From positions 1 through 12,047 of the forward strand of contig JAFGVM010000096.1 in assembly GCA_016937995.1 (NCBI GenBank): a stretch of DNA of 12,047 bases, given 5' to 3'. Positions 3,994 through 12,047 of this stretch are shown here, piece after piece (within the stretch, counting starts at the first letter, position 1; each line of letters opens with the position of its first letter). Made by a program: the position numbers and the translations under genes. The notes beneath the pieces are model-generated. The model had not been told where the DNA came from, made no database searches, and saw nothing but the letters and a program-made list of their open reading frames with translations. Source of the DNA: Candidatus Delongbacteria bacterium (lineage in GTDB: Bacteria > UBA4055).

Positions 3994-4440
3994 ATGAAAA
4001 AAAACGTTAGAAATATTTCAAGAATATACAAGCCTGAGATTAACTCTGAAGTAGTACTGCCCCTTTACACTGAAAAACTTTCTGCAGGATTCCCTTCCCC
4101 AGCCAATGATTACATTGACAGAGGACTTGATCTGAACGAACTGCTTATAAAAAATCCATCTGCAACTTTCTATGTTGAGATAGAAGGTGAGTCCATGATA
4201 AATGCAGGCATAAATTCAGGAGACATTCTTGTTGTTGACAGATCACTGGAAGCAAAGCATGGAACTATAATAGTAGCAATACTTGATGGAGAATTCACAG
4301 TAAAGAGACTTTACTGGAAGGGAAAAACCGTAAAGCTTTTGGCGGAAAACCCGAACTATAAACCTATTATTATCACTGATGAGATGGATTTTGAAATATG
4401 GGGTGTTGCGACAACAGTGATACATAGAATAAAAACGTAG
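3994..4440 (+). CDS. umuD: UmuD-type LexA-like self-cleaving peptidase (S24)
   Basis: About 148 aa from the ATG at 3994. An in-frame ATG at 3958 would add 12 hydrophobic residues without family counterpart, so I prefer 3994. Neither start has a clear ribosome site. UmuD is cut by RecA-stimulated autoproteolysis to UmuD', which joins UmuC as DNA polymerase V for lesion bypass. The sequence matches UmuD along its length. The cleavage site is Ala-Gly in KLSAGFPSPANDY (E. coli has Cys-Gly). The nucleophile Ser67 lies in EGESM and the general base Lys104 in FTVKRL. Their 37-residue spacing equals that of E. coli Ser60/Lys97. The end, FEIWGVATTVIHRIKT, is typical. It heads a plus-strand set with the SRAP gene and umuC. 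Confidence 0.93.
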   Translation: MKKNVRNISRIYKPEINSEVVLPLYTEKLSAGFPSPANDYIDRGLDLNELLIKNPSATFYVEIEGESMINAGINSGDILVVDRSLEAKHGTIIVAILDGEFTVKRLYWKGKTVKLLAENPNYKPIIITDEMDFEIWGVATTVIHRIKT

Positions 4441-4444
4441 TTGC

Positions 4445-4507
4445 AATTACCCAAATGGCACCGTCTGGGGAGTAGCAACTGCGGTGATACATAAACTGAA
4501 TAAATAA
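4445..4507 (+). pseudogene. Relic of the C-terminus of a second umuD
   Basis: Directly after the umuD stop, in another frame, 20 codons read NYPNGTVWGVATAVIHKLNK and then TAA. The part VWGVATAVIHKLNK is clearly homologous to the end of the intact UmuD (IWGVATTVIHRIKT). The DNA has diverged considerably, so this is not a recent duplication. It has no start codon of its own. It is best read as the surviving tail of a resident umuD that was replaced or deleted. Confidence 0.75.
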
Positions 4508-5220: not shown

Positions 5221-5241
5221 AGTCAGAAATTAGAACTTAAA
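5221..5241. repeat. 7-bp repeat tract upstream of R2 copy 2
   Basis: Degenerate heptamers AGTCAGA, AATTAGA and ACTTAAA directly abut R2 copy 2. The tract is on the same side of R2 as at copy 1, so tract and hairpin repeat may travel together. Confidence 0.6.
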
Positions 5242-5297
5242 AAATTATCCCAACGGGATATAACCCCAATAACCACAGGTTTCAACCTGCGGGGAAA
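5242..5297 (+). repeat. Dispersed double-hairpin repeat R2, copy 2
   Basis: A small hairpin ATCCC-AAC-GGGAT (5247-5259), the linker TATAACCCCAATAA, and a strong hairpin CCACAGGT-TTCA-ACCTGCGG (5273-5292, one A-C mismatch) are followed by GGAAAA. It is almost identical to copy 1 near mutS but inverted relative to it on the map. Each copy points the same way towards its downstream repair gene. The two copies bracket kdsD, umuD and the SRAP gene. Confidence 0.75.
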
Positions 5298-5331
5298 AAT
5301 GCACTGAGCCTACCGAAGTGTGAGAGATAAA

Positions 5332-6628: not shown

Positions 6629-6670
6629 TACGATATTTTATCCAAAAGTTTAAAAAAATAATCTTTTGAC

Positions 6671-6840
6671 TTACTTTCCCAGACTGTCAAGGATCTATAC
6701 AATTTATTCTCCCCGTGAAACCGACGATCCACATCACGGGGAAACCTGCGACACTGCTATAAACCAGCAGTCACTTAGGGGCAAGAACTTGGATCGTCTT
6801 GATTTTGGTCCCGATCAATCGGGATCATCAAGGAAAGTAA
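6671..6840 (+). ncRNA. Pseudoknot-forming dispersed element, copy A
   Basis: About 170 nt, with copies B and C elsewhere in the window. The outer arms TTACTTTCC (6671-6679) and GGAAAGTAA (6832-6840) pair. P1 is CCCCGTGA (6711-6718) with TCACGGGG (6734-6741). The P1 loop contains GACGATCCA (6723-6731), which pairs with TGGATCGTC (6790-6798) as P2, giving an H-type pseudoknot. The 48-nt linker (6742-6789) is conserved among copies. In this copy it also holds a local hairpin ACTGCT/AGCAGT (6753-6758 with 6766-6771). A 3' stem CTTGAT/ATCAAG (6798-6803 with 6827-6832) encloses TCCCGA-TCAA-TCGGGA. It lies between umuC and the converging 323-aa gene. Function, transcribed strand and family are unknown to me, and it may act as RNA or as folded single-stranded DNA. 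Confidence 0.6.
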
Positions 6841-6870
6841 CGTAAAAAAAATTATAATAAAACGTATTAA

Positions 6871-6897
6871 GATTCTGAATCAAGTTCAGAATGACGG
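6871..6897. repeat. GAATGAC-type hairpin repeat R5, copy 1
   Basis: TTCTGAA-TCAAG-TTCAGAA (6873-6891) followed by TGACGG, directly beside the stop codon of the 323-aa gene. A second copy at 9751-9780 keeps the TCAAG loop and GAATGAC but has other paired bases. It may also act as a weak terminator. Confidence 0.65.
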
Positions 6898-7869
6898 TTA
6901 GCTCTCCAACTTTAATTCAAATCTACAGCGATCATCTCCTTTAAGTGGGGATTCCAATAGTTTGATCTCAAGATCCATACCGAGCATATTATCAAATGCG
7001 TTCTTTGTAAATCCGGCACTGCAATAACACCAGTTCTCATTTACTTCATTGTTTCCTTTTAACAGAGAATCTCTGACGAACTGACAGTGACAGGCATAAT
7101 ATTTTCTTTCTTCTGGAGTTCTGGCATTCAGATAATTTTCTATATCATAAGGGATCTTAGTAACATACAATTTATTTCCATCTCTTACAGCTGAAAGTAT
7201 TTCCTGGTCAGCTTTCACATAATCAACTACTTCCTGAGTGATCCTCTGCTCGAACCAGACTATATCGTTATCACAGTGATACTGCAATTCAGCCACCTTA
7301 CGATCATGAAGTTCTTTGAGAAAAGTATCTAGATCCGATGCTTTTTTATAATTTTCATGCTCTTTTGCAAAAGCTTCCTTCGGAATATTATGGTTATTTC
7401 CTATAAGAACTTTTTGGTATTTATCCTCAGGAAGTACTTTGGTAAGCCTGTTCATAAGATCTTTGGTGAATTCAGGATATGCGGATAGAGGTGATCCAAG
7501 CGGAATATCTGGAAGATCTCCGAATATTTTTTCAGAAGTATTCTCACCAACTACCTTTATAGCTCTCTTTTTAATGTTTTCAATTACACCAACACCACCG
7601 AGAATGGTAGTAAAATAAATATAGATATCATTCTTTTTCAGAAGATAGAAATATCTCGCTATTGCAAGAATATTATCAATAGAATTATCACCCTGCTCTA
7701 TAAGCATTTTCACATATTTTTTGATATCACTGACCTCTGCTGAAACTGTATCTTTATTTATTTCCTGTAGGTATTTTTCCAGTTTTTCAATATCTCTGAG
7801 GGCCTGTTCGATCTGCTGCTCATCATAATTCCTCTGCTGATAAAGTTCCTTTAATTTTTCCTTACTCAT
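6898..7869 (-). CDS. Uncharacterised protein with a V4R-like Cys-motif C-terminal domain
   Basis: The 323-aa protein has no signal peptide, so it is probably cytosolic. The first 50 residues are charged and helical, likely a coiled coil (ELYQQRNYDEQQIEQALRDIEKLEKYLQEI). The middle is not recognised. The C-terminus carries Cys260-His-Cys262 (ACHCQFVRDSLL), Cys281-Tyr-Cys283 (NENWCYCSAGF) and LESPLKGDDRCRFEL with Cys315. The CYCSAG...LLESPLKGDDRCRF pattern resembles the V4R / methanogen-output / ATC-hydrolase-like ligand-binding fold, where such cysteines bind metal or ligand. That assignment is inference from motif style. The start has a strong AGGAG (7874-7879 region) about 5 nt upstream. It converges on umuC and is followed by R5 and element copy A. 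Confidence 0.85.
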   Translation of the reverse strand: MSKEKLKELYQQRNYDEQQIEQALRDIEKLEKYLQEINKDTVSAEVSDIKKYVKMLIEQGDNSIDNILAIARYFYLLKKNDIYIYFTTILGGVGVIENIKKRAIKVVGENTSEKIFGDLPDIPLGSPLSAYPEFTKDLMNRLTKVLPEDKYQKVLIGNNHNIPKEAFAKEHENYKKASDLDTFLKELHDRKVAELQYHCDNDIVWFEQRITQEVVDYVKADQEILSAVRDGNKLYVTKIPYDIENYLNARTPEERKYYACHCQFVRDSLLKGNNEVNENWCYCSAGFTKNAFDNMLGMDLEIKLLESPLKGDDRCRFELKLES

Positions 7870-7996
7870 AATTTCTCCTGCAAAATATTTCTATATGAGA
7901 TAATATACTAATCTTTTGATTGAATATAATATAAATCCGATGAACTGTAATAAAAAGGGATTAAAACAATTAATCTCTCACGGAGGCACAGAGGTG

Positions 7997-8010
7997 GTGG
8001 GTTGTGGGTT
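7997..8010. repeat. 7-bp repeat GTGGGTT x2
   Basis: Two perfect adjacent GTGGGTT units lie just left of element copy B, the same relative position as the heptamer tracts next to copies A and C. Before it, CACGGAGG-CACAGAGG (about 7979-7994) is a short 8-bp duplication. The gap 7870-8265 has no credible gene; its contents are this tract, copy B, a terminator and another heptamer tract. Confidence 0.6.
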
Positions 8011-8024
8011 GCATCTTTTGAATC

Positions 8025-8192
8025 ACTTTCCCAGACAGATAAGGAACTTACAAATTATATTCCCCGTGAAAAACCGACGATCCATCATCACGGGGAAACC
8101 TACGACACTGCTATAAAGTACTGATAACTAAGGGGTAAAAACATGGATCGTCTTGATTTTGGTCCCGATCAATCGGGATCATCAAGGAAAGT
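8025..8192 (+). ncRNA. Pseudoknot-forming dispersed element, copy B
   Basis: Same plan as copy A. The outer arms ACTTTCC (8025-8031) and GGAAAGT (8186-8192) pair. P1 is CCCCGTGA (8062-8069) with TCACGGGG (8088-8095). P2 is GACGATCCAT (8076-8085) with ATGGATCGTC (8143-8152), 10 bp. The linker 8096-8142 is 47 nt. The 3' stem CTTGAT/ATCAAG (8152-8157 with 8181-8186) encloses TCCCGA-TCAA-TCGGGA. The 3' half from P2 onward is almost identical to copy A, whereas the linker is closer to copy C. The A-only hairpin in the linker is absent. It follows the 3' side of the propeller lipoprotein gene. Confidence 0.6.
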
Positions 8193-8207
8193 AACGTAAA
8201 AAAACAT

Positions 8208-8237
8208 AAAAAAAGGGGACTAATGGAAATCGTCCCC
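8208..8237 (-). terminator. Intrinsic terminator of the propeller lipoprotein gene
   Basis: On the minus strand GGGGAC (complement of 8232-8237) pairs with GTCCCC (complement of 8215-8220) and is followed by seven T. It lies about 30 nt after the lipoprotein gene's stop. A related hairpin with the same ATCGTCCCCTAC flank follows the DUF4230 gene. Confidence 0.75.
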
Positions 8238-8240
8238 TAC

Positions 8241-8275
8241 ATTATCAATTATTAATTATTCATTGTTAATTATAA
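8241..8275. repeat. 7-bp repeat tract overlapping the end of the lipoprotein gene
   Basis: Five degenerate heptamers: ATTATCA, ATTATTA, ATTATTC, ATTGTTA, ATTATAA. The stop codon (8266-8268) and final codons of the lipoprotein gene lie inside the tract. Confidence 0.65.
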
Positions 8276-9420
8276 TCATAAACATTCACATAAACCTCTC
8301 CATCCTCATCCATTGCAACATATAATTTATCTCCAACAAAATAGAAAATATCTTTCATAATTAAAATTTCATTGTACACAATATTACCTTTGAATTTATA
8401 ACTATTTAAATAAACACCATCTTTGAAAATGCTGAATTCTGTATAACCACCTGCGACACTTTCGTCAGTCTTGGCTTTCTTAACCCACACACGACCGAAT
8501 TTATCGCAATAGATATCTTCAATAGCTTTATTATATGCTCTTTTAAGATCGTTTTCTTTCTTCCCATCACTATTGATCACAGCCCCTTTGAATATTTCTA
8601 TTCTGTCTTTAGAGACTTCTGATTTTTTATAACTCATTTTAACAGTCTGTTCAAGTTTTCCCGAAAGACCATATACTTTATATTTGAAAAGATTCTCATC
8701 AACTTCTGCAGTGAAAATATTATTATCTGAAAAAGTCACCGGAGTAAATATATCTGTCGGATTAACCTGTGGATTATTTGTATCTATTTCCATACTTCTT
8801 TTATCCAAAGAAAAGATCTCATTATACTTTGAATCATACATCTGTACTTCTACAGTAAAATATACAATACCATCGATCATCTTTGGTGCCATTTTAAGAC
8901 CTAGATTTCTTTCTTTGTTTATCTGTTCTAAGAACATAGGTTTCGCATCCTGTTGAAAGTGCTTAAATCCTAAAAATTCACCATCAGTATCAAACTTAAC
9001 ACGTTTAATTGCAGCCTGATCAAAAACAACGATCGTATCATTGAAAATACTCATATCTCCAAGCATTCCATATTCTCCGGGACCATTGCCTAATCTTCCA
9101 AAAGTTTTAATATATTTACCCGCCCTATCAAACTTTTTAATAGTAGAAGAGTGACTGTCAGCTATATAAATGCTCCCTTTCGAATCTACAACAATATCTG
9201 ACACTTTTGAAAATACTCTTTCTTCCGGATCATCATCGCTTTCAGTGCCTGATATTTTTATTTTGAGTTTTAAACCGGGATCAAAATCCGGTATTGAAGG
9301 TGTGCCATTATTGGTGAAATTCTTTACTCCATCAACTGTTTCCACTTTGTACGTGCTGTTATTTGAGCACGATGTCAAAGCAATTAGTAATGCCATTAAA
9401 ACGAATAAATATTTTTTCAT
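8266..9420 (-). CDS. 6-bladed beta-propeller (NHL-like) lipoprotein
   Basis: 384 aa. The N-terminus is a lipoprotein signal: MKK, a hydrophobic stretch, and the lipobox LTSC with Cys18 as the predicted lipidated residue, followed by SNNS. The mature part has NHL/6-bladed-propeller blades, clearest at about 85-135 (VSDIVVDSKGSIYIADSHSSTIKKFDRAGKYIKTFGRLGNGPGEYG), matching the '6-bladed beta-propeller' family common in Bacteroidota-type genomes. Later blades are degenerate; DKFGRVWVKK and DEDGEVYVNVYDYN close the fold. The role is probably binding at the cell envelope; the ligand is unknown. The ATG has a good AGGAG 8 nt upstream. A terminator and element copy B follow the gene. Confidence 0.88.
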   Translation of the reverse strand: MKKYLFVLMALLIALTSCSNNSTYKVETVDGVKNFTNNGTPSIPDFDPGLKLKIKISGTESDDDPEERVFSKVSDIVVDSKGSIYIADSHSSTIKKFDRAGKYIKTFGRLGNGPGEYGMLGDMSIFNDTIVVFDQAAIKRVKFDTDGEFLGFKHFQQDAKPMFLEQINKERNLGLKMAPKMIDGIVYFTVEVQMYDSKYNEIFSLDKRSMEIDTNNPQVNPTDIFTPVTFSDNNIFTAEVDENLFKYKVYGLSGKLEQTVKMSYKKSEVSKDRIEIFKGAVINSDGKKENDLKRAYNKAIEDIYCDKFGRVWVKKAKTDESVAGGYTEFSIFKDGVYLNSYKFKGNIVYNEILIMKDIFYFVGDKLYVAMDEDGEVYVNVYDYN

Positions 9421-9482
9421 ATTTTTCTCCTGTAATTTTAATTCTTTGACTGAGGAGAAGGGAAAAGGTTGTCTTTGTGTAA

Positions 9483-9517
9483 TTTTAGATTTTAGATTTT
9501 AGAAGTCAGATTTAAGA
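9483..9517. repeat. 7-bp repeat tract (TTTTAGA x3 plus variants)
   Basis: Three perfect TTTTAGA units, then AGTCAGA and TTTAAGA, about 20 nt left of element copy C. The gap 9421-9784 shows no gene; it holds this tract, copy C and R5 copy 2. Confidence 0.75.
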
Positions 9518-9537
9518 GAATGCGAAGAATTGTGCGA

Positions 9538-9707
9538 AACTTTCCAGATTGATAAGGATCTTTCCAAATTATCCTCTCCATCCATCATCGGCAGTTCAAC
9601 AGGATGGAGAAACCTGCGATACTGCTATAAAGTACTGATCACTAAGAGGTTAAAACTTGAACTGCCTAGCACTTTTTGTTACTTTTTGCTGCAATGGGAA
9701 AAAGTAA
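9538..9707 (+). ncRNA. Pseudoknot-forming dispersed element, copy C (covarying stems)
   Basis: Same architecture as A and B, but both main stems have new bases with pairing kept. P1 is CTCCATCC (9576-9583) with GGATGGAG (9602-9609). P2 is GGCAGTTCAA (9590-9599) with TTGAACTGCC (9657-9666). The two bases between the P2 5' arm and the P1 3' arm are CA, as in A and B. The 47-nt linker (9610-9656) is nearly identical to that of B. The 3' hairpin is replaced by TTACTTTTT (9679-9687) pairing with AAAAAGTAA (9699-9707). The 5' flank ACTTTCC-AGA-AAGGATCT is conserved. It lies on the 3' side of the 81-aa gene. Confidence 0.6.
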
Positions 9708-9750
9708 AGATCATGTACTCTTTCTAAATAAAACGAATTATAATACTCTT

Positions 9751-9780
9751 GGATTCCCGGATCAAGTCCGAGAATGACAG
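9751..9780. repeat. GAATGAC-type hairpin repeat R5, copy 2
   Basis: TTC-CGGA paired with TCCG-GAA around a TCAAG loop (9754-9774), then TGACAG. It lies directly beside the stop codon of the 81-aa gene, the same position as copy 1 beside the 323-aa gene. Confidence 0.65.
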
Positions 9781-10047: not shown

Positions 10048-10076
10048 AAAAGAGGGGACGATAAGAAATCGTCCCC
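10048..10076 (-). terminator. Terminator-like hairpin after the DUF4230 gene
   Basis: On the minus strand GGGGACGAT pairs with ATCGTCCCC over 9 bp (10054-10062 with 10068-10076) around a 5-nt loop, followed by CTCTTTT. It shares AATCGTCCCCTACA with the terminator of the lipoprotein gene, so it is also a dispersed repeat. It lies just upstream of the 81-aa gene's ribosome site. Confidence 0.65.
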
Positions 10077-11960: not shown

Positions 11961-12047
11961 AAGTCAGAAGTCAGAAGTCAGAAGTCAGAAGTCAGAAGTC
12001 AGAAGTCAGAAGTCAGAAGTCAGAAGTCAGAAGTCAGAAGTCAGAAG
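11961..12047. repeat. Perfect 7-bp tandem array (TCAGAAG x12)
   Basis: From 11964 to the window end there are exactly 12 uninterrupted TCAGAAG units, preceded by AAG. The array may continue beyond the window. Its unit matches the degenerate units at 2776-2806, 5221-5241 and 9504-9510. Confidence 0.95.

Follow-up and report, generated by a model that had tools for sequence, protein, structure and literature searches.

Pseudoknot-like repeats dispersed in a Candidatus Delongbacteria genome suggest a hitherto undescribed class of miniature mobile element, probably processed as single-stranded DNA in a folded state

The element described here occurs three times in a stretch of 12,047 nucleotides, referred to below as the window, which is a contig (JAFGVM010000096.1; G000:C48) of the 2.75 Mb genome of a Candidatus Delongbacteria bacterium. 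The copies are a dispersed family. Each contains two interleaved helices, P1 and P2, and compensatory changes strongly support the view that this pseudoknot-like structure is real and selected. Taken together, the observations suggest a type of miniature mobile element that has not been described before and that is probably processed as single-stranded DNA in a folded state.

All three copies are intergenic: copy 1 lies 3' of UmuC, copies 2 and 3 flank a beta-propeller gene, and the surrounding genes are core genes (MutS, KpsF-like, UmuD-like, SRAP and UmuC). A preliminary description had located the copies at 6671-6840, 8025-8192 and 9538-9707 and had given them a common order of parts, from an ACTTTCC arm through the interleaved arms of P1 and P2 and the linker between them to a 3' hairpin; on re-reading, the copies are found at these positions with all the parts present in that order. 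The similarity of copy 2 to copy 1 (E = 1e-53) rules out a chance likeness. The start of the linker, AAACCTRCGAYACTGCTATAAA, is identical in the three copies, as had been claimed, from 6742, 8096 and 9610, and its pattern, with 3 mismatches permitted, gives 6 matches genome-wide versus 0 for a reversed-pattern control. The closing arm proved less general: the 5' ACTTTCC arm and the 3' GGAAAGT seal the element in copies 1 and 2 only, and the majority of the other copies have a separate interleaved hairpin in their 3' region. The features of the three copies are the following.

6661..6841, + strand: copy 1, whole; copy 2-like sequence from ATCTTTTGA onward
6671..6679, + strand: copy 1, 5' half of the closing arm, TTACTTTCC, with its partner GGAAAGTAA at 6832-6840
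6710..6718, + strand: copy 1, P1 5' arm, TCCCCGTGA
6723..6731, + strand: copy 1, P2 5' arm, GACGATCCA
6734..6742, + strand: copy 1, P1 3' arm, TCACGGGGA
6742..6763, + strand: copy 1, conserved linker start
6790..6798, + strand: copy 1, P2 3' arm, TGGATCGTC
6798..6840, + strand: copy 1, 3' module, with the tag CTTGAT at 6798-6803, the inserted hairpin TCCCGATCAATCGGGA at 6809-6824, ATCAAGG at 6827-6833 and GGAAAGTAA at 6832-6840
8013..8194, + strand: copy 2, whole
8061..8069, + strand: copy 2, P1 5' arm
8076..8085, + strand: copy 2, P2 5' arm
8088..8096, + strand: copy 2, P1 3' arm
8096..8117, + strand: copy 2, conserved linker start
8143..8152, + strand: copy 2, P2 3' arm
8152..8194, + strand: copy 2, 3' module, of the same type as in copy 1
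9537..9722, + strand: copy 3, whole, including a 3' extension, AGATCATGTACTCTT, common to other copies
9575..9583, + strand: copy 3, P1 5' arm, TCTCCATCC
9590..9599, + strand: copy 3, P2 5' arm, GGCAGTTCAA
9602..9610, + strand: copy 3, P1 3' arm, GGATGGAGA
9610..9631, + strand: copy 3, conserved linker start
9657..9666, + strand: copy 3, P2 3' arm, TTGAACTGCC
9667..9707, + strand: copy 3, 3' module, hairpin TTACTTTTT...AAAAAGTAA, with a weak candidate loop-tag pair of 4 bp, AGCA/TGCT

Ten aligned copies show pairing in 98.4% of the P1/P2 cells. Displacing the 3' arms by 1-3 columns lowers this fraction to at most 54%. Changes on both sides are seen in 9 of the 19 pairs. The covariation score is 0.45-0.47, versus 0.20 in shuffles, none of 500 reaching the real value, and it is 0.18 or less once the 3' arms are slid by the same 1-3 columns. 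Loss of P1/P2 pairing was looked for in further copies: fourteen beyond the three of the window retain both helices, a few with mismatches, and bring new compensated arms such as GGCAAATCAA/TTGATTTGCC and GACGATGCA/TGCATCGTC. The selection of the structure is thus supported by compensatory changes in copies that were absent from the original proposal. One copy accommodates an extra hairpin of ~38 nt inside the P1-P2 loop, with both helices intact. A hairpin within the linker (CTGCTATAAA-NN-AGCA), drawn by eye in some copies, is absent from others and was dropped. A relation to TnpB was also set aside: the matches to CTGCTATAAA in one genome (G051) read as the 3' coding ends of TnpB genes, a chance sharing, and no TnpB search was made in the genus.

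A covariance model, R1, built from ten copies with base pairs supplied for P1 only, was run against the genome and its relatives and reveals a family dispersed in the three genomes of the genus: 10 matches in the genome of the window and 9 in two congeners (3 in G001, 6 in G002), weak members included, since one (C37, own genome) is interrupted and another (G002:C110) is partial. Ten other genomes of the same phylum gave no match. The true copy number is probably higher than the matches counted, because the ends of contigs C18 and C24 fall inside copies. A divergent member in G002 (L084) has the same order of parts, with arms CCCC/GGGG and GGCAATCATA/TATGATTGCC, and scores just 17.7 bits with R1 (E 0.29). 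A plasmid collection held no match to copy 1, and the matches in the plasmid and phage collections are to the terminal module alone.

This terminal module gives the 3' end of the element a second interleaved fold. In most copies, the tag CTTGAT abuts the P2 3' arm and is followed by a hairpin, GTTACTTTTT...AAAAAGTAAC, whose loop, ATCAAG, is complementary to the tag, so that the tag-loop pairing and the stem interleave as a second pseudoknot. The 3' hairpin of the preliminary description is present and is, in most copies, part of this tag-loop module; the pairing was not seen in one hairpin (L074). In the case of copies 1 and 2, a TCCCGAT...ATCGGGA hairpin takes the place of the 5' half of the module's stem, and the 3' half can instead pair with the 5' ACTTTCC arm. 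The module pattern has six matches in a genome of another phylum (G134), behind a different structured body, and the module is found in seven genomes of that phylum altogether, in phage contigs, and on plasmids of Aureibacter, Persicobacter and Parabacteroides (Bacteroidota) and of Ilyobacter (Fusobacteriota). Tag and loop change together, as CTTGAT/ATCAAG, CTTGAA/TTCAAG and, in Parabacteroides, CTTGACC/GGTCAAG; five more tag-loop pairs of 4 bp stand at the same position (e.g. GCAG/CTGC, TGCC/GGCA), each within chance. By these sequence matches, the terminal module is shared with structured repeats of three or more further phyla, whose bodies are unrelated; R1 does not match these bodies, and no homology is claimed for them. 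No description of the module was found in the literature, motif searches returning primers and unrelated texts.

The relatives also show how the module is placed in longer elements. On the Ilyobacter plasmid NC_014633, it is inverted at both ends of elements of ~380-450 nt at all seven loci read, and the inverted repeat continues outward past the hairpin; on a Parabacteroides plasmid (L192 985-1541), inverted structured bodies with terminal modules surround a small open reading frame annotated as a smalltalk protein. In Delongbacteria, two loci (L051, L055) carry a hairpin of the GTTACTTTTG...CAAAAGTAAC type ~180-230 nt upstream of the core, as a hairpin only. The unit of two inverted palindromes is thus seen in the Ilyobacter and Parabacteroides relatives, and the window copies keep a left remnant only; terminal inverted repeats are clear in Ilyobacter, and in the window they amount to ACTTTCC/GGAAAGT in copies 1 and 2. 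Because of the inverted modules and upstream hairpins of these relatives, we infer that the window copies are elements stripped of most of their left end. As a separate observation, the Ilyobacter, Aureibacter and Parabacteroides bodies (L191, L194-L202) have in common a loop motif, CTGTTTGAGCG-N-AGCGAGTTT, most copies of which include GCGNAGC, known as a DNA mini-hairpin sequence.

The model we propose, to which we give a probability of about one half, is that the copies are small non-coding, non-autonomous mobile DNA elements that fold as single-stranded DNA and are processed in trans. It is based on the dispersal of the copies, which have no match among ten further genomes of the phylum nor one behind the UmuC ortholog of a congener, on the compensatory changes in P1 and P2, on the scarcity of G-T pairs and of promoter- or terminator-like sites, and on the recurrence of the terminal modules across phyla and their inversion at the ends of the Ilyobacter and Parabacteroides elements. 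When a strand turns single, by replication or transposition, it would fold into the interleaved shape; a trans-acting DNA-processing enzyme would recognise the fold via the conserved linker and the terminal hairpin, would excise or copy the element, and would then join it at another place. On this view, the copies of the window have been shortened, with a well-kept right end and a mere remnant of the left terminal module. A wider version, in which miniature mobile DNA elements with pseudoknotted single-stranded ends and bodies, tag-loop pairing and a recombinase other than Y1 extend across phyla, can be put forward only tentatively.

The preliminary description had left open whether the structure acts as an RNA or as folded single-stranded DNA, and it is the second alternative that the scarcity of G-T pairs favours. 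A multi-copy structured non-coding RNA, acting in trans in a ribozyme-like or guide-like manner through its pseudoknot, is an unlikely explanation, even though the H-type pseudoknot and its long, conserved and single-stranded linker recall RNA architectures and the + strand has a more stable fold than its shuffles (z -4.9); the same holds for the - strand (z -3.6), and folding energies do not discriminate between RNA and DNA. A selected RNA is expected to tolerate G-U much more than A-C. In the P1/P2 arms of 17 copies, listed by hand, 310 of 323 pairs are Watson-Crick, 2 are G-T, 5 are A-C and 6 are other, and the stems of the 17 tRNAs of the loci examined have 329 Watson-Crick and 30 G-T pairs (n=359), a difference in G-T fraction with a Fisher p of ~5e-7. 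This near-absence of G-T is unlike RNA and suggests folded DNA, and the equal rarity of G-T and A-C agrees with selection that acts on DNA or on both strands. The RNA explanation is further opposed by the absence of any Rfam match, by the scattering of the copies behind unrelated genes, and by the lack of a consistent promoter or terminator: copies 1 and 2 have one promoter-like site each (9/12 matches), none is reported in copy 3, and no terminator-like site occurs in any of the three. A coding origin was rejected by eye, as the copies open in different frames and no frame is conserved.

If the copies act as DNA, the enzyme could be a Y1 transposase (RAYT/TIRYT) encoded elsewhere in the genome and moving a REP/REPIN-like or terminal-inverted-repeat element, and a transposase of the Y1/REP type had been the example first offered. 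Each of the three genomes of the genus has Y1 genes, the Ilyobacter elements with inverted hairpins at both ends resemble REPINs, and RAYT-like genes with long flanking terminal inverted repeats are on record (PMC3733652). This explanation is nevertheless quite unlikely, since the Y1 genes found in the phylum have no R1 copy within 1.5 kb, no hairpin of the module type lies near the Y1 genes of the phylum of G134, and Y1_Tnp matches number zero in three module-bearing genomes of that phylum (G134, 99% complete; G413, 99%; G414, 93%). The module, which reads CTTGAT-T-rich-GTTACTTTT, has no GT[AG]G foot, and palindromes of other types (CACGG...CCGTG and GTCCCTAAGGGAC) lie on the flanks of those Y1 genes that were read closely (L060, L059). 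The flanking palindromes resemble an inverted pair of palindromic repeats in the window, CAGGTTGAAACCTGTGG...TCCCGTTGGGATAA, at 2705-2773 and 5241-5309 (I1), which are likely the cognate repeats of those Y1 genes. Alternatively, the copies could be relics of a miniature inverted-repeat transposable element (MITE) of a DDE transposon, with fortuitous palindromic ends and an interior pairing that arises incidentally from nested inverted repeats. The long terminal inverted repeats of the Ilyobacter elements do reach beyond the hairpin; P1 and P2, however, are interleaved rather than nested and co-vary across copies, and the terminal modules are kept across phyla with differing bodies, which makes such an origin very unlikely.

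Several points weigh against the model of mobile elements folded as single-stranded DNA. No target-site duplication was found, and neither was a clean empty site: the UmuC ortholog of G002 has no element 3' of the gene, and the gene that follows it differs too. A transposase gene was seen neither between the modules nor next to them, where a few flanking open reading frames were read by eye, without a family-library scan. Good loop-tag pairing is not seen in the left modules of L051 and L055. The copies are related by descent, so that the events behind the covariation and wobble counts are not independent. ARAGORN may leave mismatched tRNA pairs undrawn, which makes the G-T comparison alone a fair one. 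An integron attC site was considered and discarded, the surrounding genes being core genes and the structure unlike attC.

Other repeats are found in the window. Palindromes with TGACG/TGACA ends (CGTC-tagged-like) occur at 6870-6897 and 9751-9780, a short way 3' of copy 1 and of copy 3, and many other copies are followed by similar ones; a GGGGAC...GTCCCC repeat pair is present at 8215-8237 and 10054-10076, with similar sequence at two further copies (C37, G1C234). The tail of the UmuD-like gene is duplicated (4399-4433, 4466-4500) beside the SRAP gene, which is missing between UmuD and UmuC in the congener G002 (L189). An inverted repeat, AAAGTCTTACA...TGTGACTTTTT, at 38-95 is similar to the flank of L084, and a tandem array of the 7-bp unit AGAAGTC occupies 11961-12044 at the contig end.

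If the fold acts as DNA, the family would provide a natural DNA pseudoknot maintained by selection, and a common terminal signal would join repeats scattered over four or more phyla. The terminal module would then be a handle for seeking, in genomes in which no Y1 transposase was found, the enzyme by which folded single-stranded DNA is read.

The claim that the element belongs to no named family has stood: Rfam 15 at the gathering threshold returned tRNAs only and no match to the element, the best sub-threshold matches (CRISPR-DR52 and Ocean-V) falling on the 3' hairpin, and no such family is described in the literature searched. In Pistol-type ribozymes and H-type RNA pseudoknots, a hairpin loop pairs with sequence on the downstream side of a conserved linker, and a hairpin follows. 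The element has that order, a comparison made through Rfam only, and differs in its lack of an Rfam match, its linker of 47-48 nt and the near-absence of wobbles. Near concepts are the REP (repetitive extragenic palindromic) sequences and REPINs with their RAYT transposases (PMC3116915) and the RAYT/TnpA-Y1 subclasses (PMC6006769). Like them, the element is short, extragenic, dispersed, hairpin-forming and thought to act as folded single-stranded DNA, and its Ilyobacter relatives have two inverted palindromic ends and a spacer; unlike them, it has no GTAG/GTGG foot, A/T-rich stems, interleaved pairing, a much larger and structured body and no adjacent RAYT, and it occurs in genomes without Y1_Tnp matches. 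With the TIR families of the TIRYT genes and with TIRtrons (PMC3733652), it has in common long terminal inverted repeats, self-complementary tracts and moderate copy numbers; at all loci read, however, no tyrosine transposase lies between or beside the repeats, and the sections of that source that were read make no mention of a loop-tag pairing. The element is finally comparable to MITEs in being non-coding, short and dispersed, with full-length relatives that carry inverted ends, and it is distinguished from them by an interior that is under structural selection.

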